Assembly (NCBI GenBank): GCA_947650875.1
Contig: CANSXE010000004.1
Location: 1-59,578 of the forward strand
DNA length: 59,578 nt
Origin: an uncultured Bacillota bacterium
GTDB taxonomy: Bacteria > Bacillota > Clostridia > Oscillospirales > Oscillospiraceae
Direction: 5' to 3'
Shown here: positions 6,226 through 16,874 of the stretch, piece after piece
Layout: each line of letters begins with the position of its first letter
Position numbering within the stretch: position 1 is the first letter of the stretch
The notes under the pieces: generated by a model
What the model was told of the DNA's origin: nothing
Seen by the model: only the letters and a program-made list of their open reading frames with translations
Database searches by the model: none
Made by a program: the position numbers and the translations under genes

Positions 6226-6720
6226 ATGAAAAAAGTAGCCGTTATCATGGGTTCCGACAGCGACTGGCCGGTAGTCAAAGGGGCCTGTGCCCAGCTGGAG
6301 GAGTTCGGCATCCCCTACGAGGCCCACATTCTCAGCGCCCACCGCACCCCCTCCGCCGCCGCGGAATTTGCAAAAACTGCCCGGGCCAACGGCTTCGGTG
6401 TGCTCATCTGCGCCGCCGGCATGGCCGCCCATCTGGCCGGGGCCTTCGCCGGCAATTCCACCCTGCCGGTAATCGGCATCCCCATGAAGGGGGGCGCCAT
6501 GGACGGCCTGGATGCCCTGCTGGCCACTGTCCAGATGCCCAGCGGCATCCCCGTGGCCACCGTGGCCATCAACGGGGCCAAAAACGCCGCCGTGCTGGCC
6601 GCCCAGATTCTGGCCGTCTCCGACGACGCCCTGGCCGTCAGGCTGGACCAGGCCCGGGAGAAAATGGCGGAGCAGATTGCTGAAAAAGAGACCAAGCTCC
6701 AGGCGGAGCTGAAGGGCTGA
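6226..6720 (+). CDS. purE: N5-carboxyaminoimidazole ribonucleotide mutase / AIR carboxylase PurE
   Basis: A 164-residue PurE with the family signature SDSDWPVV near the N-terminus, the conserved ILSAHRTP loop, [11 protein letters not shown] and the [14 protein letters not shown] core. It carries the carboxylation step of IMP synthesis. Class I enzymes act on N5-CAIR made by PurK. No purK lies in this operon, so PurK is elsewhere or this enzyme uses AIR and CO2 directly. It is the first gene of the purine operon, with AAAGGAG upstream and purC 49 nt downstream. Confidence 0.93.
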
Positions 6721-6769
6721 AATTACCGTATCAATCCACAATTTAATTAATTTTTTGGAGGAATTTATC

Positions 6770-7456
6770 ATGGAAAAGAATCTCGTTTATACCGGCAAGA
6801 CCAAGAACGTCTACGCGCTGGACAACAGCAACTATCTGCTCAAGTTTAAGGACGACTGCACCGGCAAGGACGGCGTGTTTGATCCCGGCGAGAACTCCGT
6901 GGGCCTGACCATCGAGGGCGTGGGCGACGTGAACCTGCGCATGTCCATCTACTTCTTTGAGAAGATCAACGCCGCCGGCATCAAAACCCACTTCGTCTCC
7001 GCCGACCTGGAGAACACCACCATGGAGGTCCTGCCCGCCAAGGTCTTCGGCCACGGCCTGGAGGTCATCTGCCGCCACAAGGCGGTGGGCTCCTTCATCC
7101 GCCGGTACGGCGAGTATATTGAGGAGGGCGCCGACCTGCCCGCCTATGTGGAGACCACCTTCAAGAACGACGACAAGGGCGACCCCCTGGTCACCAAGGA
7201 CGCCCTGGTGGCCCTGGGCGTGATGACCGAGGCCCAGTACGACGACATTAAGGACATGACCCAGAAGATCACCAAGATCGTGGCCGACGACCTGAAGGAG
7301 AAGGGCCTGGTCCTCTACGACATCAAATTTGAGTACGGCTACGACCCCGACGGCAAGGTGATGCTCATTGATGAGATCGCCTCCGGCAACATGCGGGTGT
7401 ACAAGGATGGACAGTATATCGACCCCATGACCCTGTCCAAGCTGTTTTTCGCGTAA
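6770..7456 (+). CDS. purC: SAICAR synthetase PurC
   Basis: A 228-residue phosphoribosylaminoimidazole-succinocarboxamide synthase. It joins CAIR and aspartate using ATP. Family segments include [36 protein letters not shown], and the Mg/ATP region [24 protein letters not shown] 6770 is chosen because GGAGG sits 8 nt upstream; five in-frame codons before it are not needed. Length is standard for short bacterial PurC. Confidence 0.95.
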
Positions 7457-7546: not shown

Positions 7547-7572
7547 ATCAATTCTAAGGAGGACAAGCATAC

Positions 7573-8997
7573 ATGGGTGGCTTTTTCGGAGCCGTCTCCA
7601 CACAGGACGTCTCCCTTGACATCTTTTTTGGAGTGGATTACCACTCCCACCTGGGCACACGCCGGGGCGGCATGATTATCCACGACGCCAGGGACGGCTT
7701 CCAGCGCCAGATTCACTCCATCGAAAACACCCCCTTCCGCACCAAGTTTGAAAAGGACCTGGCAAAATTCCACGGCTGCGCCGGCATCGGCTGCATCAGC
7801 GACACCGACCCCCAGCCCCTGCTGGTCCGCTCCCACCTGGGACTGTACGCCATCACCACCGTGGGCATCATCAACAACGCCGAGGAACTGGTGGACCAGT
7901 ACTTTTCCGACCACGGCCACCAGTTTATGGCCATGAGCTCGGGCAAAGTCAATTCCACCGAGCTGGCCGCCGCCCTGATCAACCAGAAGGACAACCTGGT
8001 TGACGGCATCCTCCACGCCCAGCAGGCGGTGGCGGGCTCCCTCACCCTGCTCATCCTCACCGCCGACGGGGAGATTATCGCCGCCCGGGACCGGGTGGGC
8101 CGTCTGCCCGTCCTCATCGGCAGGGGGGAAAAGGGCCACTGCGTCTCCTTCGAGTCCTTCGCCTACCACAAGCTGGGCTACGAGGACGCCTACGAGCTGG
8201 GCCCCCGGGAGATTGTCCGCATCCGGGCCGACGGCTTCGACGTCCTCTCCCCCCCCGGCGAGGAGATGAAAATCTGCGCCTTCCTCTGGAGCTACTACGG
8301 CTACCCCAACTCCAACTACGAGGGGATCAACGTGGAGGTCATGCGCTACCGCAACGGCGCCATCATGGCCCGGAGCGAGCGGGAGCGGGGTGTCCTGCCC
8401 CAGGTGGACTATGTGGCCGGTGTCCCCGACTCGGGCATCCCCCACGCCATCGGCTACGCCAACGAGAGCGGCAGCCACTTTGCCCGGCCCTTTGTAAAAT
8501 ACACCCCCACCTGGCCCCGTTCCTTCATGCCCGCCAATCAGAACGTGCGCAATCAGGTGGCAAAAATGAAGCAAATCCCCGTCCCGGAGCTGATCGAGGG
8601 CAAAAAGCTGCTCTTTGTGGACGACTCCATCGTCCGGGGCACCCAGCTGCAGGAGACGGTGGACTTCCTCTACGAGTCCGGGGCCAAGGAGGTCCACATG
8701 CGCTCCGCCTGCCCCCCCATCATGTACAGCTGCAAGTACCTGAACTTTTCCCGGGGAAACTCCGACATGGACCTCCTTGCCCGGCGGACCATCCAGGAGC
8801 TGGAGGGCGACGAGGGCCAGAAGCATGTGGCGGAGTACGCCGACGCCTCCACCCAGCGGGGCGGCTGTATGCTGAAGGCCATCTGTGAGAAATTCGGCTT
8901 CGACTCCCTGGGCTACCAGTCCCTGGACGGCCTTCTGGAGGCCATCGGCATCGACAAGGACCGGGTGTGCACCTACTGCTGGTCGGGGAAGGAATAA
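7573..8997 (+). CDS. purF: PurF-like amidophosphoribosyltransferase lacking the glutaminase nucleophile
   Basis: A 474-residue PurF homologue. The phosphoribosyltransferase half is intact, with the PRPP loop LFVDDSIVRGTQ at residues 347-358. Cysteines aligned with the B. subtilis [4Fe-4S] ligands are visible in KICAFLW, IMYSCKYL and the C-terminal CTYC. The glutaminase half is abnormal. Active PurF exposes an N-terminal Cys, whereas here the start reads MGGFFGAVS and the first Cys is residue 69. The usual HVRYSTTG and HNGN motifs are replaced by GIGCISDTDPQP and VGIINN. It may use free ammonia or a partner glutaminase, or be a regulatory paralogue. The start follows AAGGAGG at 7557-7563; no upstream Cys-containing start is apparent. 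Confidence 0.85.
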   Translation: MGGFFGAVSTQDVSLDIFFGVDYHSHLGTRRGGMIIHDARDGFQRQIHSIENTPFRTKFEKDLAKFHGCAGIGCISDTDPQPLLVRSHLGLYAITTVGIINNAEELVDQYFSDHGHQFMAMSSGKVNSTELAAALINQKDNLVDGILHAQQAVAGSLTLLILTADGEIIAARDRVGRLPVLIGRGEKGHCVSFESFAYHKLGYEDAYELGPREIVRIRADGFDVLSPPGEEMKICAFLWSYYGYPNSNYEGINVEVMRYRNGAIMARSERERGVLPQVDYVAGVPDSGIPHAIGYANESGSHFARPFVKYTPTWPRSFMPANQNVRNQVAKMKQIPVPELIEGKKLLFVDDSIVRGTQLQETVDFLYESGAKEVHMRSACPPIMYSCKYLNFSRGNSDMDLLARRTIQELEGDEGQKHVAEYADASTQRGGCMLKAICEKFGFDSLGYQSLDGLLEAIGIDKDRVCTYCWSGKE

Positions 8998-9002
8998 TTT
9001 CT

Positions 9003-9149
9003 GTAGGGACGCTTCATGAAGCGTCCGCAGAGCAGCCACAAAAGGGCGGACACATCGTGAAGTCCGCAGAGCAGCTACAAAAGGGCGGACGCATCGTGAA
9101 GTCCGTAGAGCAGCCACAAAAGGGCGGACGCATCGTGATGCGTCCCTAC
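9003..9149. repeat. 147-bp element with 39-bp tandem repeats between purF and purM
   Basis: Bounded by GTAGGGACG at 9003 and its complement CGTCCCTAC at 9141-9149. Inside are three near-identical units of about 39 bp, each containing AGAGCAGC(C/T)ACAAAAGGGC followed by GGAC.CATCGTG. End sequences match other palindromic repeats in the window. 39 bp is 13 codons, but no start or ribosome site suggests a peptide. Not a CRISPR, because the units abut without unique spacers. Confidence 0.75.
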
Positions 9150-9172: not shown

Positions 9173-10237
9173 ATGGAAAATTCCCATTCCGCTTCCTACG
9201 CCGCCGCCGGTGTGGACATTGAGGCCGGCTACAAGGGCGTACAGCTGATGAAAAAGCACGTGGCCCGCACCATGATTCCCGGCGTGGTCAGCGGCATCGG
9301 CGGCTTCGGCGGCCTGTTTGCCCCCGACCTGTCCGGGATGAAGGAGCCGGTGCTGGTCTCCGGCACCGACGGCGTGGGCACCAAGATTCGTCTGGCCCAG
9401 CTGCTGGACAGGCACGACACCATTGGCATCGACTGCGTGGCCATGTGCGTCAACGACATTATTTGCTGCGGTGCTAAGCCCCTGTTCTTCCTGGACTACA
9501 TCGCCATCGGCAAAAACGAGCCCGAGAAGGTGGCCGCCATCGTCTCCGGCGTGGCCGAGGGCTGCGTTCAGTCGGGCTGCGCCCTCATCGGCGGCGAGAC
9601 CGCCGAGCACCCCGGCCTGATGGCCCCCGAGGACTACGACCTGGCCGGCTTCGCCGTGGGCGTGGTGGACCGTGAGAAGATCATCGACGGCTCCAAGGTG
9701 GCCGAGGGCGATGTCCTCATCGGACTGACCTCCTCCGGGGTCCACTCCAACGGCTTTTCTCTGGTGCGCAAGGTCTTTGACATCGAACACGCCGACCTGA
9801 CCACCCCCATGGATGAGCTGGAGGGAAAATCCCTGGGCGAGGCCCTGCTGGCCCCCACCAAGCTCTATGTAAAGCCCGTTCTGGCCCTCATCGATGGCGG
9901 GATTGACCTCCACGGTGCCAGCCACATCACCGGCGGCGGCTTCTACGAGAATATTCCCCGGATGCTGCCCGAAGGGCTGTCCGCTTTCCTGATGGGGGAC
10001 AAGCTGCCCCATCTGCCCATCTTTGAGTTGATTCAAAGTCGGGGAGATATCCCCGAACGGGACATGTACAACACCTTCAACATGGGCCTGGGCATGGTGC
10101 TGGCCGTCCCCGAGGACCAGGAGCAAAAGGCGCTGGACATCCTCCGCGCCGCCGGAGAGGACGCCAATACCATCGGCGTGGTGGGCAAGGGCCGCCACGG
10201 CGTAGTAATCGGAGCTAATATAGGTACAATCGAATGA
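9173..10237 (+). CDS. purM: phosphoribosylformylglycinamidine cyclo-ligase PurM
   Basis: A 354-residue AIR synthetase, closing the imidazole ring of FGAM with ATP. Family features: [11 protein letters not shown] near the N-terminus, the glycine-rich [77 protein letters not shown] and [16 protein letters not shown] and the other pur genes lie downstream. GGAGG lies about 7 nt before the ATG, right after the tandem repeat element. Its stop overlaps the purN start by 4 nt (ATGA), suggesting translational coupling. Confidence 0.96.
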
Positions 10238-10875
10238 AAAAAATCGCTGTGTTAGTATCCGGGGGCGGGACCAATTTACAGGCCCTCATCGACGCCCAAA
10301 ACCGGAGAGAGATCAACGGCGGGGAAATTGGCATGGTGGTCTCCTCCAGCCCGGAGGCCTACGCCCTGGAGCGAGCCAAACAGGCCAATATTCCGGGTTA
10401 CATCCTGCCCAGGAAGAATTGGCCCTCCAATCAGGCCTATACCAAGGCCCTGGTGAGTCTTCTTCAGGAGATGGGGGCAGACATGGTGGTGCTGGCGGGC
10501 TTTATGACTATCCTCACCGAGGAGATTGTCCAGGCCTACCCCAACAAAATTCTCAACGTCCACCCCGCCCTCATCCCCTCTTTCTGCGGGAAAGGGGCCT
10601 ATGGTCTCCACGTCCATGAACAGGCCCTGGCCTACGGCGTGAAGGTCACCGGAGCCACCGTCCACCTGGTCACCGCCGAACCGGACGGCGGGCCTATCGT
10701 TCTGCAAAAGGCCATTGACATCCTGCCCTGGGACACCCCGGAGACCCTCCAGCGCCGGGTAATGGAGGAGTGTGAGTGGAAGCTCCTCCCCAAGGCGGTG
10801 GACCTGTTGTGCCGGGATAATCTGAAGGTAGAAGGACGCACCGTAAGAATCATAGGAGGACGTGTGATTGTATGA
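10234..10875 (+). CDS. purN: GAR transformylase PurN
   Basis: A 213-residue phosphoribosylglycinamide formyltransferase using 10-formyl-THF. Visible motifs: [15 protein letters not shown] (phosphate loop), [15 protein letters not shown] and [25 protein letters not shown] containing the catalytic Asn-His pair. The late [17 protein letters not shown] segment carries the conserved D. The start overlaps purM by 4 nt and the stop overlaps purO by 4 nt, so the three are tightly coupled. Length is normal. Confidence 0.95.
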
Positions 10876-11579
10876 TTGATCTGATGAAATACCTCTCGGA
10901 AAATTCCTACCCCGGCCGGGGCATCGTCCTGGGCCGCACCGCCGACAACAAAAAGGCGGCTATCGCCTACTTCATTATGGGCCGCAGCGAAAACAGCCGT
11001 AACCGGGTCTTCGAGAGCACTGAGGACGGCATCCGTACCAAGGCCTTTGACGAGAGCAAAATGACCGATCCCTCGCTGATTATCTACCACCCCGTCCGGC
11101 TGCTGCCCAACGGCCTGCTGGTGGTGACCAACGGCGACCAGACCGACACAATCGCTGACCACATCGCCCAGGGCCACTGCTACCGCCACGCCCTGAACAC
11201 CCGGAAATTTGAGCCCGACGGCCCCAACTGGACCCCCCGCATCTCCGGCGTGATGAAGCCCGACGGGAGCTATAACCTGTCTATCCTCAAGAGCCTGGAC
11301 GGCGACCCCTTCTGCTGCTGCCGGTACTTCTTCGAGTACGACAACCCCGTCCCCGGAACAGGACACTTCATCCACACCTATCAGGAAAATCTGGACCCTC
11401 TGCCCTCCTTCCAGGGCGAGCCCCGGCGGGTGGAAATCACCACCCTCACCAAGGCCCGCGAACTGGCCGACGCGTTGTGGGACAGCCTGAACGAGGACAA
11501 CAAGGTGTCTCTTTACGTCCGTCTTATCGACCTGGCAGGCGGCGGAACGGACAGCTGTATCATCAATAAGAACCGTTGA
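10872..11579 (+). CDS. purO: IMP cyclohydrolase, PurO type
   Basis: A 235-residue protein of the IMP_cyclohyd family (PurO, first known from archaea). It begins MKYLSENSYPGRGIVLGRTADNKKAAIAYFIMGRS and contains RTKAFDESKMTDPSLIIYHP, all typical of the family. It would close FAICAR to IMP, the step done by the N-terminal half of PurH in most bacteria. The separate transformylase at 13511 lacks that half, so the two complement each other. The start overlaps purN by 4 nt. Confidence 0.85.
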   Translation: MIDLMKYLSENSYPGRGIVLGRTADNKKAAIAYFIMGRSENSRNRVFESTEDGIRTKAFDESKMTDPSLIIYHPVRLLPNGLLVVTNGDQTDTIADHIAQGHCYRHALNTRKFEPDGPNWTPRISGVMKPDGSYNLSILKSLDGDPFCCCRYFFEYDNPVPGTGHFIHTYQENLDPLPSFQGEPRRVEITTLTKARELADALWDSLNEDNKVSLYVRLIDLAGGGTDSCIINKNR

Positions 11580-11594
11580 AAGAAGGGTATTGCA

Positions 11595-12791
11595 ATGGGT
11601 CTCTTTGACCGCTTCAAGAAACAGGACAAGCCCTCTGAGCCCAAGGTGGAAACCCCCGCCGCCCCGGAGACGGGGCTGATTGACTTCCACCCCTACGACA
11701 CCGGCCTGGCCGAGTCTGTCCGGGCGCTGGAGGCGGACCTGCGAAAGCTGAACACCAACGGACGCCGGCCCTGCGGCCGGGACGAGTTCATCGCCCTGCT
11801 GGCGGGCATCGCCGCCCTGCGGAAGACCCCCGGCATCCCCGGGCCCAACGAATCGGGCCCCAACTACTTTATCACCCTGCCCAAATGCGCCGACCGCACG
11901 GCAGAAATGGCGTGCAAAGCCCACCTGAAGGAGATCTTCGGCATTACGGACCAGGCGTCCATGGTGGACTTCTGCAACCGGGAGCTCCGCTGCCACAGCC
12001 AGTATCTGGACTTCGAGGGCTTCTGGGAGGGCCGTCCTCCCTTCGACCTGTCTCAGCTCAACGGGGGCGCCCTGGAATTTTTCAAAGTAGCCCGGGACTT
12101 CTCCGCCCAGTTCTACCCCATCGTGGGCCACAAGGGCTACCTGGCCTGGGACATCTCCGAGTGCGTGGGTCACCTGCGGGCGGGGTACGCCTGCGGTCTG
12201 CTCTCCCGGGAGGAATTTGACGAGATGGCGGAGCACTGGATTGTCCAGGCCCAGATTTTCCGGGACTGGACTGACTTTGCCGTCAGCCTGGTGTGCGGCG
12301 AGCTGTACTGGGATTTCCGGGGCGGCTCCAAGCTGCCCGAGCTGAACAAGGGCCTGGAACTGTGGACCAAGCTGGTAAGCATGCTTTTGAACGACGGTGC
12401 CGCCTGGGCCAGCGGCCTGTGGTATGTCCCGCCCCGCAAGAAGGAGTTCGGGCTTTGGGCCCCGGAGTTTAAGCTGTATCTCACCGACTGGGAGGGCCCC
12501 AGCGGCTGCTTCGCCACCGACCACATCACCGTCCTGGGCAAAAAGGTGGGCTGGTGCTACCGGGAACAGCCCACCGAGGGCCGCCCCGACAGCGGCTGGC
12601 GGTTCTTCTCCGGGGAGGAGAGCGAGGATTATGTCAACGACGCCAAAAATACCGAGGTCTACGACCTGAACACCATCTGCAACTACGACCCGGATGTTCT
12701 GCCCCTGCTCAGCGCCCCTGTGGGCACCGCCTACATGCGGGGACCGGACGGGAAATTCCACGCGGAACAGTACACACCATCGGAGGACTGA
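11595..12791 (+). CDS. DUF1266-domain protein in the purine operon
   Basis: A 398-residue protein of unknown function. The region around residues 180-240 (GYLAWDISECVGHLRAGYAC, then FRDWTDFAVSLVCGELYWDF) matches the DUF1266 pattern, found in bacterial proteins often near contact-dependent toxin or immunity genes. The N-terminus MGLFDRFKKQDK followed by a Pro/Ala/Glu linker is nearly the same as in the DUF6630 protein at 15019. No signal peptide or membrane span. It lies 15 nt after purO with its own ribosome site (AAGAAGGG). The function in this operon is unknown; the immunity-like label is an inference from family context. Confidence 0.7.
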   Translation: MGLFDRFKKQDKPSEPKVETPAAPETGLIDFHPYDTGLAESVRALEADLRKLNTNGRRPCGRDEFIALLAGIAALRKTPGIPGPNESGPNYFITLPKCADRTAEMACKAHLKEIFGITDQASMVDFCNRELRCHSQYLDFEGFWEGRPPFDLSQLNGGALEFFKVARDFSAQFYPIVGHKGYLAWDISECVGHLRAGYACGLLSREEFDEMAEHWIVQAQIFRDWTDFAVSLVCGELYWDFRGGSKLPELNKGLELWTKLVSMLLNDGAAWASGLWYVPPRKKEFGLWAPEFKLYLTDWEGPSGCFATDHITVLGKKVGWCYREQPTEGRPDSGWRFFSGEESEDYVNDAKNTEVYDLNTICNYDPDVLPLLSAPVGTAYMRGPDGKFHAEQYTPSED

Positions 12792-12795
12792 CATT

Positions 12796-13413
12796 ATGTT
12801 AACCGGAAAGGAATTGGCCCGCACCTACTTCGACGGCCTGAAGGAGGCCTATCTTCGAGAGGGCGGCCAGGAGATGTGGGACCATTTCACCTCTGTCGCC
12901 CACGGGGCGGACCAGCGGGACCTGGACCGTCTCACCGCCCTCTACCCCGATATCCCGGAGAGCCTGGTAGAACTGCTCAAGCTGGCAGACGGCACCTATT
13001 ACCGGGAGTACCCGGCGGACAAGGTGCTTCTCTACTTCCTGGGCTCCGACTACGAGGGCTACCCCTACTACCTGCTGTCCGCCCGGCAGATGGTTCAGAG
13101 CCGCCACGAAGCCAAAGAGTTCTTCGACTACTTCGTCACCCGGGAATATGACGACATCCCGGTGGACGAAGGTATCTGCGACGACCTGGACAAGCTGCAC
13201 TGGCTCCACTTCTCCGACTGCTGCAACAACGGCGGAACCTCTCAGCTGTTCATCGACTTCTCCCCCTCCGCCAAGGGCAAAAAGGGCCAGGTGCTGCGGT
13301 TCCTCCACGACCCGGACGAGATGGTCATTGCGGCGGACAGCTTTGACGAGTATCTGCAAATGCTCATGGATAACGAATACGACTTCATCAATGAGGACAC
13401 GGTGGAGGAATGA
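12796..13413 (+). CDS. SMI1/KNR4-family protein
   Basis: A 205-residue protein with SMI1/KNR4 features: LDRLTALYPDIPESLVELLKLADGTYY near the N-terminus, then an acidic middle and LHFSDCCNNGGTSQLFIDFSPSAKGKKGQVLRF, matching the 'g..D.g.....ld' core of the superfamily. Members include many polymorphic-toxin immunity proteins and some cell-wall regulators. The ATG at 12796 follows a CGGAGGAC ribosome site that overlaps the end of the DUF1266 gene. It is followed by a palindromic repeat. No cognate toxin is seen nearby. Confidence 0.75.
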   Translation: MLTGKELARTYFDGLKEAYLREGGQEMWDHFTSVAHGADQRDLDRLTALYPDIPESLVELLKLADGTYYREYPADKVLLYFLGSDYEGYPYYLLSARQMVQSRHEAKEFFDYFVTREYDDIPVDEGICDDLDKLHWLHFSDCCNNGGTSQLFIDFSPSAKGKKGQVLRFLHDPDEMVIAADSFDEYLQMLMDNEYDFINEDTVEE

Positions 13414-13486: not shown

Positions 13487-13510
13487 ACACGACCGAAAGG
13501 AGCGCGCAAC

Positions 13511-14623
13511 ATGACCGAACTGGAACTGAAATACGGCTGCAACCCCAACCAGAAGCCCGCCCGCATCTTTATGGAGCAGGGCGAGCTGCCCCTGGAGGTA
13601 CTCAACGGCCGGCCGGGATATATCAACTTTATGGACGCGCTGAACTCCTGGCAGCTGGTAAAGGCCCTGAAGCAGGCCACCGGCCTGCCCGCGGCGGCTT
13701 CCTTCAAGCACGTCTCCCCCGCCGGCGCTGCCCTGGGCCTGCCCCTGAACGACACCGAGCGGCTGATGTACCTGGCCCCCGAGGGGGACCTCTCCCCCAT
13801 CGCCTGCGCCTACATCCGGGCCCGGGGGGCCGACCGGCTGTGCTCCTTCGGGGACTGGGCGGCGCTGTCCGACCCCTGCGACGGCGACACCGCCCGCTTC
13901 CTGGCCGGTGAGGTGTCCGACGGTGTGATCGCCCCCGACTACACCCCGGAGGCCCTGGAAATTCTGCGGGAGAAGCGCAAGGGCGGCTACAACGTGGTAA
14001 AAATCGACCCGGATTACACCCCCGCCCCCATCGAGCGGCGGAACATTTTCGGCATCACCTTCGAGCAGGGGTACAACGACCTCACCATTGACGAGAGTAT
14101 GCTGGAGAATGTGGTCACACAGGCCAAGCGCCTGCCCCAGAGCGCCAAAAATGACATGCTCCTGGCTCTCATTACCCTAAAATACACCCAGTCCAATTCG
14201 GTGTGCTACGTCAAGGACGGGCAGACCATCGGCGTGGGGGCCGGTCAGCAGAGCCGCATCCACTGCACCCGGCTGGCAGGGAACAAGGCGGATATCTGGT
14301 GGCTGCGGCAGCATCCCAAGACGCTGGCTCTCCCCTTCCCGGAGAATGTCCGCCGTCCCGACCGGGACAACGCCATTGACGCCTTTATCGCCGACGTCCT
14401 CACCCAGAAGGAAAAGGCCGACTGGATCGCGAAGCTGTCCGGCGTGACTTTGGGCTCCGACGCTTTCTTCCCCTTCGGTGACAATGTGGAGCGGGCCCAC
14501 CAGTCGGGAGTGCAGTATATCGCCCAGCCCGGCGGCTCCATCCGGGACGACCAGGTCATCGAGACCGCTGACAAATACGGCATGGTCATGGCCTTTACCG
14601 GGATGCGGCTGTTCCATCATTAA
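13511..14623 (+). CDS. stand-alone AICAR transformylase (PurH C-terminal type)
   Basis: A 370-residue protein equal to the transformylase half of PurH, without the IMP cyclohydrolase half. Signs are LKYGCNPNQKPA at the start, SFKHVSPAGAALG with the catalytic Lys-His pair, AYIRARGADRLCSFGDWAAL, IGVGAGQQSRIHCTRLAG and FFPFGDNVERAHQSGVQYI. It formylates AICAR with 10-formyl-THF; PurO encoded upstream would close the ring. The ATG at 13511 is used because the upstream in-frame codons lie inside a palindromic repeat. An AAAGGAG ribosome site precedes it. Such separate enzymes are called PurV or PurH2 by some authors. Confidence 0.88.
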   Translation: MTELELKYGCNPNQKPARIFMEQGELPLEVLNGRPGYINFMDALNSWQLVKALKQATGLPAAASFKHVSPAGAALGLPLNDTERLMYLAPEGDLSPIACAYIRARGADRLCSFGDWAALSDPCDGDTARFLAGEVSDGVIAPDYTPEALEILREKRKGGYNVVKIDPDYTPAPIERRNIFGITFEQGYNDLTIDESMLENVVTQAKRLPQSAKNDMLLALITLKYTQSNSVCYVKDGQTIGVGAGQQSRIHCTRLAGNKADIWWLRQHPKTLALPFPENVRRPDRDNAIDAFIADVLTQKEKADWIAKLSGVTLGSDAFFPFGDNVERAHQSGVQYIAQPGGSIRDDQVIETADKYGMVMAFTGMRLFHH

Positions 14624-14635
14624 GGAGGGAAAATC

Positions 14636-15004
14636 ATGTTTATCAGCAGTAACACCGGCTCTTTTTCCCACGATTCCTTTGAAGAATACAAGGCCGCTTT
14701 AGAGACCTGCTTTCAGCCGGAAAATGAAATCTGGTGCTCCCGTACGGAAGAAGACAAGTATCCCTGCCTGTCCATCCTTGTAAAAGGTGACCAGGCTGTG
14801 GTCAACTATTTTGAGGAGGAGAACGGCGGTAAGATGCTGGTCTCCTTCGGCGACGAGGATGCGGAAGACATTGTGACGTTTTGTGACGGCCAATATGAAA
14901 TCGCCGCCTGGCAGGTGATACCGGCCGCCGACGCCATGGCCTGTGCGCTGGAATTTTTCCACACTCAGCACGCACCCGACTGTATTGACTGGGGCGAGTT
15001 ATAG
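14636..15004 (+). CDS. small protein resembling Imm1-family immunity proteins
   Basis: A 122-residue acidic protein. The C-terminus ACALEFFHTQHAPDCIDWGEL fits the end of Imm1-type immunity proteins ('...f..tG..p..i.W'), and the VVNYFEEENGGKMLVSFGD stretch fits their beta-rich core. The match is by eye and weak, so 'unknown function' is the safe label. It is 12 nt after the AICAR transformylase with AAGGAGG upstream of the ATG, and is followed by the DUF6630 gene. No toxin partner is nearby. Confidence 0.6.
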   Translation: MFISSNTGSFSHDSFEEYKAALETCFQPENEIWCSRTEEDKYPCLSILVKGDQAVVNYFEEENGGKMLVSFGDEDAEDIVTFCDGQYEIAAWQVIPAADAMACALEFFHTQHAPDCIDWGEL

Positions 15005-15018
15005 AAAGGCTGTTTATC

Positions 15019-15588
15019 ATGGGAATTTTTGACCGTTTTAAGAAGCAGGACCCGGCTCCGGAGACCTCATCTGCCCCGGAAACGGAGTGTAAGCCCTTCG
15101 GACCTAACGTGTTGGAAATTGCGAAGCTGATCTCATCCGGGGACGAGACAGTCTTAAAGGACGTCACCGCCTGTACTGAGGACCCCGCCGGCTGGTTTAC
15201 GGCCCACCAGAACCGGTACGGGGAGCGGGGCGTTGACTCCGCCAGCGACCCGGATTTGATCCAGTGGCTGGGGCTGGTAGATATTCTGGAGGAGCACGGC
15301 TGGGTCTGCGAACGGGACTGGAAGGACGAGCTGGAGGATTTTTCCTATTTTGTCCAGAACCTCCACGGCTTCCAAAAGCTGGGGCTGGAGCTGAACCCGG
15401 ACTGGCTTGACGAGGACGAGGACATCTCCGCCTGGTGTGATGTCCTGACGGAAAAGTGGGCCGCTCAGGGGGTACGCATAGCCACCATTGGTATTGACAG
15501 TGACAGCTACGTTCTCTTCCCCGTCTCCGTTCCCCAGTTTGACGAGCTGCAAAGACTGGCCGGAGAAATCGGCCAATGTATCGACTAG
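15019..15588 (+). CDS. DUF6630-type protein with MGIFDRFKKQ N-terminus
   Basis: A 189-residue acidic protein. The WLGLVDILEEHGWVCERDWK segment, LDEDEDISAWCDVL and the terminal IGIDSDSYVLFPV match DUF6630, a family of unknown function often seen beside SMI1/KNR4-like and immunity-like genes. The first 20 residues (MGIFDRFKKQD, then a Pro/Ser/Glu linker) mirror the DUF1266 protein at 11595 and resemble the FtsY N-terminus MGFFDKLKK, a membrane-binding helix in some Gram-positives. It is just upstream of purD, in the same operon. Confidence 0.65.
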   Translation: MGIFDRFKKQDPAPETSSAPETECKPFGPNVLEIAKLISSGDETVLKDVTACTEDPAGWFTAHQNRYGERGVDSASDPDLIQWLGLVDILEEHGWVCERDWKDELEDFSYFVQNLHGFQKLGLELNPDWLDEDEDISAWCDVLTEKWAAQGVRIATIGIDSDSYVLFPVSVPQFDELQRLAGEIGQCID

Positions 15589-15617: not shown

Positions 15618-16874
15618 ATGAAAGTTTTAGTGGTAGGCGGCGGCGGCCGGGAACACGCCATCTGCTGGAAGCTGGCCCAGAGCCCCAAGGTGACCCAGCT
15701 CTACTGCGCCCCAGGAAACGGGGGCATCGCCCAGGTGGCAACCTGTGTGCCTATCAAGGCCACCGATGTGGACGGGATGGTGCAGTGGGCCAAGGAGAAC
15801 GCCATGGACTTCGTCATGGTGGCCCCCGACGACCCCCTGGCCCTGGGCATGGTGGACGCCCTGGAAAAAGTGGGCATCCCCGCCTTCGGCCCCCGGGCCA
15901 ACGCCGCCATCATCGAGGCCAGCAAGGCCTTTTCCAAGGAACTGATGAAAAAATACCACATCCCCACCGCAAAGTATGAAACCTTTACAGACCTTGAAAA
16001 AGCCCTGGCCTACATCCGGGCCCAGGGCGCGCCCATCGTGGTCAAGGCGGACGGACTGGCCCTGGGCAAGGGCGTGGTGGTGGCTTCCACGGTGGAGGAG
16101 GCGGAAACCGCCGTCCGGGAGATGATGGAGGACAAGAAGTTCGGAGAAAGCGGCTCCACCGTGGTTATTGAGGAGTGCATGGTGGGCCCCGAGGTGACAG
16201 TGCTGGCCTTCTGCGACGGGGAGCACCTAGTCCCCATGCTGTCCAGCCAGGACCACAAGCGGGCCTATGACGGCAACCAGGGCCCCAACACCGGCGGCAT
16301 GGGCGCCTTCTGTCCCTCCCCCAAGTACACCCCGGAAATCGCGGACCGCTGCATGAAGGAAATTTTCCTGCCCACGGTCGCTGCTTTGAAGGCGGAAGGC
16401 CGGCCCTTCAAGGGGGTCATCTACTTCGGGCTGATGCTGACCAAAGACGGCCCCAGGGTGGTGGAGTACAACGCCCGCTTCGGCGACCCCGAGACCCAGC
16501 CTATCCTGTCCATGCTGGACACTGACCTGCTGGACATCTTCCAGGCATGTATGGACGGCACCCTGGACAAGGTGGATATCAAGTGGAAGTCGGGGGCGGC
16601 CTGCTGCCTGGTTCTGGCTTCCGGAGGGTATCCCGTCAGCTACAAGAGCGGCTATCCTATCTCCGGGCTGGAGGAAGCCGAAAAGCTGGGCGCCACTGTC
16701 TTCCACGCCGGGACTAAGGCGGAGGACGGCGCGGTCCTCACCGCCGGCGGTCGGGTGCTGGGAGTCACCGCCACCGCCTCCTCCCTGGAGGAAGCCATTC
16801 ACAAGGCATACGCCGCCGCACAGCCCATTCATTTCCAGGATATGCACTTCCGCTCCGATATCGGGAAGGTTTAA
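15618..16874 (+). CDS. purD: phosphoribosylamine-glycine ligase PurD
   Basis: A 418-residue GAR synthetase with ATP-grasp fold. Motifs: VLVVGGGGREHAICWKL at the start, PIVVKADGLALGKGVVVA (ATP site), VVIEECMVGPEVTVLAF, MLSSQDHKRAYDGNQGPNTG and VVEYNARFGDPETQ. It joins phosphoribosylamine, the PurF product, to glycine. It ends the purine operon; a terminator follows 8 nt after the stop. AAAGGAGG precedes the ATG. Normal length. Confidence 0.97.
   Translation: MKVLVVGGGGREHAICWKLAQSPKVTQLYCAPGNGGIAQVATCVPIKATDVDGMVQWAKENAMDFVMVAPDDPLALGMVDALEKVGIPAFGPRANAAIIEASKAFSKELMKKYHIPTAKYETFTDLEKALAYIRAQGAPIVVKADGLALGKGVVVASTVEEAETAVREMMEDKKFGESGSTVVIEECMVGPEVTVLAFCDGEHLVPMLSSQDHKRAYDGNQGPNTGGMGAFCPSPKYTPEIADRCMKEIFLPTVAALKAEGRPFKGVIYFGLMLTKDGPRVVEYNARFGDPETQPILSMLDTDLLDIFQACMDGTLDKVDIKWKSGAACCLVLASGGYPVSYKSGYPISGLEEAEKLGATVFHAGTKAEDGAVLTAGGRVLGVTATASSLEEAIHKAYAAAQPIHFQDMHFRSDIGKV

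Follow-up and report, generated by a model that had tools for sequence, protein, structure and literature searches.

The stretch of DNA studied here (the window, 59,578 nucleotides from contig CANSXE010000004.1 of an uncultured Oscillospiraceae bacterium, assembly GCA_947650875.1) carries a purine (pur) operon with a gene for a 474-residue variant of PurF, here called PurF-v. PurF is treated as a glutamine enzyme, and what is known of its ammonia use concerns a side activity or comes from mutants. Judged from its sequence, PurF-v is probably a phosphoribosyl pyrophosphate (PRPP) amidotransferase without the glutamine half-reaction, which would use free ammonia and PRPP to form phosphoribosylamine. 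Its former glutaminase domain would be retained as a structural, perhaps regulatory, part of the protein. PurF-v is a member of a large paralogous family in Oscillospiraceae and their kin, Lachnospiraceae, and Coriobacteriia; many gut bacteria carry such a PurF with a dead glutamine-splitting half, which most likely takes its nitrogen from free ammonia.

Active-site residues were compared in an alignment of E. coli PurF (L052), all 30 canonical PurFs from loci L002-L031, and 102 rows of variants. Every tblastn match in the fetched loci that is 45% or more identical to the window protein was taken as a variant row, the window included; the rows correspond to 101 genes, one of which is present twice. 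We take Arg73 to bind glutamine, Asn101 to form the oxyanion site, and Asp127 and the other residues to have their usual active-site roles. The preliminary description of this DNA had reported a missing N-terminal catalytic cysteine, replaced HVRYSTTG and HNGN motifs, and an intact PRPP loop with four Fe-S cysteines, and all of this holds across the family. The nucleophile column (the role of the N-terminal cysteine is described in PMC3261824) contains Cys in 30 of 30 canonical proteins; among the variants it contains Gly in 100 of the 101 scorable rows, as in PurF-v (Gly2, with no Cys upstream), and Ser in one, the end of the remaining row being missing. The serine belongs to the deepest variant, that of genome G053 (L047:7758-9164, minus strand), which begins MSGFFG. 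Arg73, Tyr74, and Thr76 of HVRYSTTG lie inside an 8-residue deletion and Asn101 of HNGN is replaced by Val, Ile, or Thr, each in 102 of 102 variant rows, and Asp127 is missing in 100 of 102, in a column that is alignment-dependent. Cys1, Arg73, Tyr74, Thr76, Asn101, Gly102, and Asp127 are kept in all 30 canonical PurFs. By these residues, the glutamine site has been lost across the whole variant family.

The PRPP site is complete. The loop DDSIVRGT is identical in all 102 variant rows and all 30 canonical PurFs, and Tyr258, Lys326, and Arg332 (E. coli numbering) are kept in every variant row; the flexible loop around Lys326-Arg332 is KYTPTWPRSF-like across the variants. Cysteines 235 and 387 are present in 101 of 101 variants, whereas 466 and 469 are present in 100 of 101, the remaining one having a gap; we take these to be Fe-S ligands, as in B. 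subtilis PurF. Because the patterns G[VT]DYHSHL and [FY][VI]KYTPTW served to gather 80 of the loci, conservation in these loci is in part built in by the selection; the patterns do not cover the glutamine-site columns.

Errors in the data were considered as a cause of the cysteine loss. A start-site error has been suggested for three archaeal purF genes (PMC3261824). For PurF-v it is ruled out: an in-frame TAA at 7555-7557 lies upstream of the ATG with only five Cys-free codons (GGQAY) between, so that a misplaced start cannot conceal a cysteine. A sequencing or assembly error is likewise ruled out, as relatives show the same loss. A search by sequence for a replacement cysteine in the old glutaminase site gave Cys74 (His71 column) as the sole candidate. 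Its role as a relocated nucleophile is unsupported, since 6 of the 102 rows are without it (96 Cys, 4 Ser, 1 Gly, 1 Val).

The predicted structure of PurF-v has the two-domain PurF fold. Structural alignments of the model to 1ao0, 1ecb, and 1gph start at model residue 2 and chain residue 1, with 23-32% identity, and the solved-structure relatives found by sequence are PurFs only (8 distinct chains). A model built from variants alone was poor in the phosphoribosyltransferase half, and in the PurF-v model the predicted local distance difference test score is below 50 at residues 313-317, within the flexible loop. Against TIGR01134 (EC 2.4.2.14, PurF), PurF-v scores 168.8 bits, under half the NCBIfam equivalog cut-off of 350. 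A domain scan of PurF-v found no additional domain.

Both domains are under purifying selection. The ratio of nonsynonymous to synonymous substitutions (dN/dS) of the former glutaminase domain is 0.08-0.17 against five relatives, and each of the five comparisons gives the N-domain a lower value than the C-domain. Within the N-domain, 37 positions are invariant over 101 variants (Met1 by construction), and 17 of these (including His26, Gly28, and Phe55) do not vary in the 15 canonical PurFs compared either.

In the host's genus, the variant occupies the pur operon and the canonical purF is often near glutamine synthetase genes. Genes in the loci were called by codon-usage scoring, as longest open reading frames gave shadow frames. 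The purM gene lies within the locus of the variant in 18 of 20 fetched loci (exceptions L047 and L051). The host's genus is represented among these by 12 loci from 11 genomes, all of them with purM. Of the 80 named variant loci, 63 contain it; the other 17 are 11 Coriobacteriia and 6 others, some cut by a contig end. For the canonical gene, purE, purM, or purN was found in none of 22 loci read in the host's genus (3-4 kb each; 28 genomes have a canonical gene), versus 5 of 7 loci read in genomes without the variant. Fourteen longer canonical loci were chosen, 13 of them from carriers of the variant: glutamine synthetase genes are nearby in 8, GlmS in 3, and no reference gene in 2.

Several loci (L133-L138, L143, L144, L146, L147, and host contig C99) gather glutamine synthetases and an ANTAR protein in clusters that look like nitrogen-assimilation clusters, with a varying set of AsnB, GuaA, PyrG, GlmS, CarAB, purA, a second purC, and canonical purF. 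Canonical purF stands beside ANTAR in G004 and between GuaA and PurC in G007. G019 (97% complete) has ANTAR-GlnA-GSIII-AsnB-GuaA-PurC-PyrG on one contig, with no purF in the 20 kb read. The names GlnA, GSIII, ANTAR, PyrG, PurC, GlmS, PurA, and CarB were assigned by Pfam, GuaA, AsnB, CarA, and PurB by NCBIfam, and DapF, DapL, NrdR, and AgcS by eye.

A pattern search of genome contigs gave at least 593 confirmed relatives, from which the 80 loci, titled Oscillospiraceae, Lachnospiraceae, Coriobacteriia, and others, were kept. A second, Cys-bearing purF, whose presence the preliminary description had left to a genome-wide search, was sought in 60 genomes of the host's order (the host's metagenome-assembled genome (MAG) and 59 relatives requested at 90% completeness or more). 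The variant is present in 41, including all 33 of the host's genus. Among these carriers, 30 have a canonical Cys-PurF elsewhere and 11 have no match (the host, G016, G019, G026, G030, G035, G036, G048, G050, G052, and G053); of the remaining genomes, 17 have the canonical gene only and 2 have neither. In 50 genomes drawn from the 80 loci, a canonical match over the cut-off was found in 23, a contig-end fragment in one (G346), and none at E 1e-40 in 26. The family of Adlercreutzia equolifaciens (59 genomes, itself included) has both genes in 37, the canonical only in 13, and the variant only in 8; the 59th genome, G403, has the variant and a canonical remnant. Matches of about 147-189 bits were counted as variants by score, residues being read only in fetched loci.

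The isolate A. equolifaciens DFI.6.87 (G327) gave no canonical PurF in a genome search, and the 18 kb read around its purM contain no purF of any kind; in canonical-only G357 the arrangement is purN-purM-purF. In near-single-contig G403 (L216:7487-9321), the start of PyrG (to about residue 307) is followed directly, in another frame, by a C-terminal piece of canonical PurF that begins near residue 200. Both glutaminase domains are missing there, and the junction is either a deletion scar or an assembly fault. A quick tree (LG+G4, SH-aLRT only) separates 71 variant rows from 7 canonical PurFs by a branch with 100% support. Canonical presence and absence on this tree require 20 changes, or 9-10 counting starred branches alone; G030 contributes two rows, and missing contigs may add false absences.

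Later steps of purine synthesis are retained in most variant-only genomes. PurL was found in 9 of 10 variant-only relatives in the host's order and in 13 of 13 further genomes (10 variant-only Coriobacteriia, G403, and two canonical-only). The purM gene was present in 36 of 36 tested, namely 33 variant-only genomes (26 from the 50-genome set and 7 from the Adlercreutzia family; in pieces or partial in G324 and G367), G403, and two canonical-only; this adds little where purM adjoins the variant and is an independent check for Coriobacteriia. An entire purine pathway of ammonia type was only partly borne out, as PurL keeps its glutaminase Cys motif in all nine read (8 variant-only genomes and G047, which has no PurF) and a reduced GuaA is not specific to carriers. 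Many of these genomes have a second GuaA (GMP synthetase) with a cut-down glutaminase domain (429-434 residues, the nucleophile motif missing in the four read) or none (291-333 residues in five called), for example at L190:5861-7147 (minus strand) on host contig C12 and in L189 and L191-L200. It accompanies full-length GuaA in many genomes, and some show the glutaminase-less form only. Matches confined to the synthetase part were obtained in the host, in 9 of 10 variant-only genomes, in 9 of 16 that have both PurFs, and in 7 of 17 with the canonical gene only, uncorrected for kinship; this amounts to 19 of 27 carriers tested, host included, versus 7 of 17 non-carriers, with few read by residue.

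Among the functions offered by the preliminary description, an ammonia-dependent enzyme is the best supported, by the lost glutamine site, the complete PRPP site, the place in the operon, and the presence of purL and purM in most variant-only genomes. Several observations weigh against it. At E 1e-100, 17 of 249 genomes in a phylum sample that includes the host carry the variant, and all 16 other carriers, 14 of them outside the host's order, keep a canonical PurF, so that the variant could be accessory there. The 50- and 59-genome sets are mostly MAGs, for which completeness is not stated. The host MAG is 77.3% complete, with one match to the variant query and no PurL found, and its contig C99 (L210; PyrG-PurC-GuaA-AsnB-GSIII) stops inside GSIII, so that the host may still have a canonical PurF of its own. 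Variant-only G053, the deepest branch, has no purL match and no pur genes near the variant, and the 11 Coriobacteriia loci have no pur gene beside it. As PurL keeps its glutaminase cysteine, the pathway still needs glutamine. The fourteenth of the longer canonical loci, from canonical-only G056, also has purF in a nitrogen cluster with GlnA nearby, so this location is not tied to carrying the variant.

A different possibility is that PurF-v works in a heteromer with canonical PurF, or with another glutaminase, that supplies its ammonia. This could apply where the two purF genes adjoin (G051, G310, G311, G314, G316, and loci L066 and L131), and PMC3261824 places crenarchaeal purF and its paralogue purF' close together as well. 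As a general rule it is unlikely: there are genomes without a canonical match, the two genes can be far apart in the host's genus (about 780 kb in G004, 860 kb in G008, and 37 kb in G006), and no glutaminase domain was found in the 11 other operon proteins of the window that were scanned or in the six immediate neighbours scanned at three Coriobacteriia loci, neighbours in other variant loci being compared with reference genes only. The sensor role also raised earlier, in which PurF-v would be a regulatory pseudoenzyme that controls the operon or canonical PurF by detecting PRPP or purine nucleotides, would fit a conserved dead domain and a re-made flexible loop. It appears improbable, given that the equivalents of Lys326, Arg332, and Tyr258 are invariant with the whole PRPP loop, catalytic residues thus being kept and not just PRPP-binding ones, and that no further domain was detected. 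Moreover, the first step would then be missing from variant-only genomes in which purL and purM are kept.

Conservation of the former glutaminase pocket might instead reflect a new site for another nitrogen donor, or one that binds and admits ammonium, with D22-Y-H-S-H-L-G28, I47-H48, and P54-F-R56 as candidate residues. The invariant N-domain positions and the low N-domain dN/dS are in keeping with such a site. However, almost half of these positions are shared with canonical PurFs, structural roles explain the others equally well, and the 80 loci were selected by patterns that contain part of the signature, which makes the proposal quite improbable. That PurF-v is a decayed relic without function can be given very little credence; the glutaminase site is indeed destroyed, but purifying selection on both domains, the number of relatives, and the conserved operon all speak against decay.

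In the host's genus, the variant fills the purF slot of the pur operon, with the glutamine enzyme, if kept, often near glutamine synthetase genes. These gene places suggest one PurF for ammonia-rich and one for nitrogen-limited conditions, and gut ammonia, which the preliminary description had invoked, is a plausible reason for the variant. A broader scheme, less likely than its central part, is offered tentatively. Gut Clostridia and Coriobacteriia may enter purine synthesis through a nitrogen switch made of two enzymes. An ammonia-only PurF, encoded in Clostridia within the pur operon, would serve when ammonia is plentiful, and a glutamine PurF kept near glutamine synthetase genes would serve under nitrogen limitation; many lineages may have dropped the latter and start purines from free ammonium alone.

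Coordinates of PurF-v, its sites, and the pur genes in the window
Feature	Positions	Strand	Description
Variant purF (PurF-v)	7573..8997	+	474 aa; glutaminase-dead PRPP amidotransferase-like protein; start MGGFFGAVS
AAGGAGG	7556..7562	+	Ribosome-binding-site-like; read directly, just before the ATG of PurF-v
Former glutaminase domain	7573..8262	+	About aa 1-230; class II glutamine amidotransferase, N-terminal nucleophile fold; Gly2 replaces Cys1
GCIS	7789..7800	+	aa 73-76; where canonical PurF has the glutamine-binding loop HVRYSTTG, deleted here
Phosphoribosyltransferase domain	8263..8994	+	About aa 231-474; Pfam PF00156 only below its cut-off
KYTPTWPRSF	8497..8526	+	aa 309-318; flexible loop, re-made; Lys309 and Arg316 (E. 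coli Lys326 and Arg332) are kept
PRPP loop DDSIVRGT	8620..8643	+	aa 350-357
Cys235	8275..8277	+	Presumed Fe-S ligand
Cys387	8731-8733	+	Presumed Fe-S ligand
Cys466	8968-8970	+	Presumed Fe-S ligand
Cys469	8977-8979	+	Presumed Fe-S ligand
purE	6226..6720	+	Aminoimidazole ribonucleotide (AIR) carboxylase; Pfam PF00731
purC	6755..7456	+	Phosphoribosylaminoimidazole-succinocarboxamide (SAICAR) synthetase; Pfam PF01259
purM	9173..10237	+	AIR synthetase; Pfam PF00586/PF02769
purN	10234..10875	+	Glycinamide ribonucleotide (GAR) transformylase; Pfam PF00551
PurO-like gene	10872..11579	+	Inosine monophosphate (IMP) cyclohydrolase; Pfam PF07826
purH (part)	13508..14623	+	Aminoimidazole carboxamide ribonucleotide (AICAR) transformylase part only; Pfam PF01808, profile positions 77-311
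purD	15618..16874	+	GAR synthetase; Pfam PF01071, PF02844, PF02843

The last two steps to IMP are split in the window, with the PurO-like cyclohydrolase and a separate AICAR transformylase in place of bifunctional PurH. Immunity-like genes (Imm33/DUF1266, SUKH SMI1/KNR4, Imm1, and DUF6630) lie between the pur genes at 11595-13413, 14636-15004, and 15019-15588, and a 39-base tandem repeat of 3.3 copies (9007-9138) fills part of the gap between the variant purF and purM. An RNA regulator was looked for in the window and seven related loci, and no Rfam family reached its gathering score. Genome G030 has two purine operons (L039 and L040), both of which include a variant purF; the two copies share 79% and 64% identity with that of the window.

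If the proposed function is correct, the existence of a natural family whose glutamine site is dead, and which in some genomes supplies the only PurF found, would demonstrate that purine synthesis can depend on free ammonia at its first step. The glutamine-dependent annotation of these genes, and metabolic models based on it, may then be wrong. A bacterial Cys-less PurF family was not found named in the titles or abstract openings that the literature searches returned, in which subscription journals are thinly covered and absence is unproven.

Free ammonia substitutes for glutamine as the nitrogen donor in pairs of ammonia- and glutamine-type enzymes such as AsnA/AsnB and the NadE types; ammonia-type NadE has no glutaminase domain, whereas PurF-v keeps a dead one. 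PurF-v resembles the PurFs of B. subtilis (1ao0/1gph) and E. coli (1ecb) in its predicted fold, PRPP loop, catalytic-loop Lys and Arg, B. subtilis-type Fe-S cysteines, and place in the operon, and differs from them in lacking Cys1, the Arg73 loop, and Asn101, as well as in its low structural-alignment identity and TIGR01134 score. In archaeal two-subunit GMP synthetase, the ATP pyrophosphatase subunit can use external ammonia (PMC10526850), as proposed for PurF-v; that enzyme has a separate glutaminase partner, whereas the scanned neighbours of PurF-v include none. The yeast PRPP amidotransferase uses ambient NH3 (PMC12017579). E. coli PurF with Cys1 replaced is reported to lose glutamine use and keep ammonia use (cited in PMC3261824), which is the behaviour proposed here, although these are laboratory point mutants and PurF-v represents a natural family with further site loss. 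The same source describes Mlab_0150 of Methanocorpusculum labreanum, a second PurF copy with Cys replaced by Ser, as in L047; it is called a recent duplicate of its own species' PurF, whereas the present family is an old separate branch. The closest parallel is the Cys-less PurF' of Crenarchaeota, described in 2011 with ammonia dependence suggested (PMC3261824). It was likened to PurF-v by its published description alone. Both are PurF paralogues without the N-terminal Cys and are tied to purine genes (here except in Coriobacteriia), but each crenarchaeon has one PurF and one PurF', while genomes in which no canonical PurF was found are common here (11 of 41 and 26 of 50). Compared with the 2011 PurF', the present family is new in its occurrence in bacteria, its scale, the displacement of canonical purF from the operon, and genomes with the variant as the only PurF found, and the isolate A. 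equolifaciens DFI.6.87 makes the earlier proposal testable.
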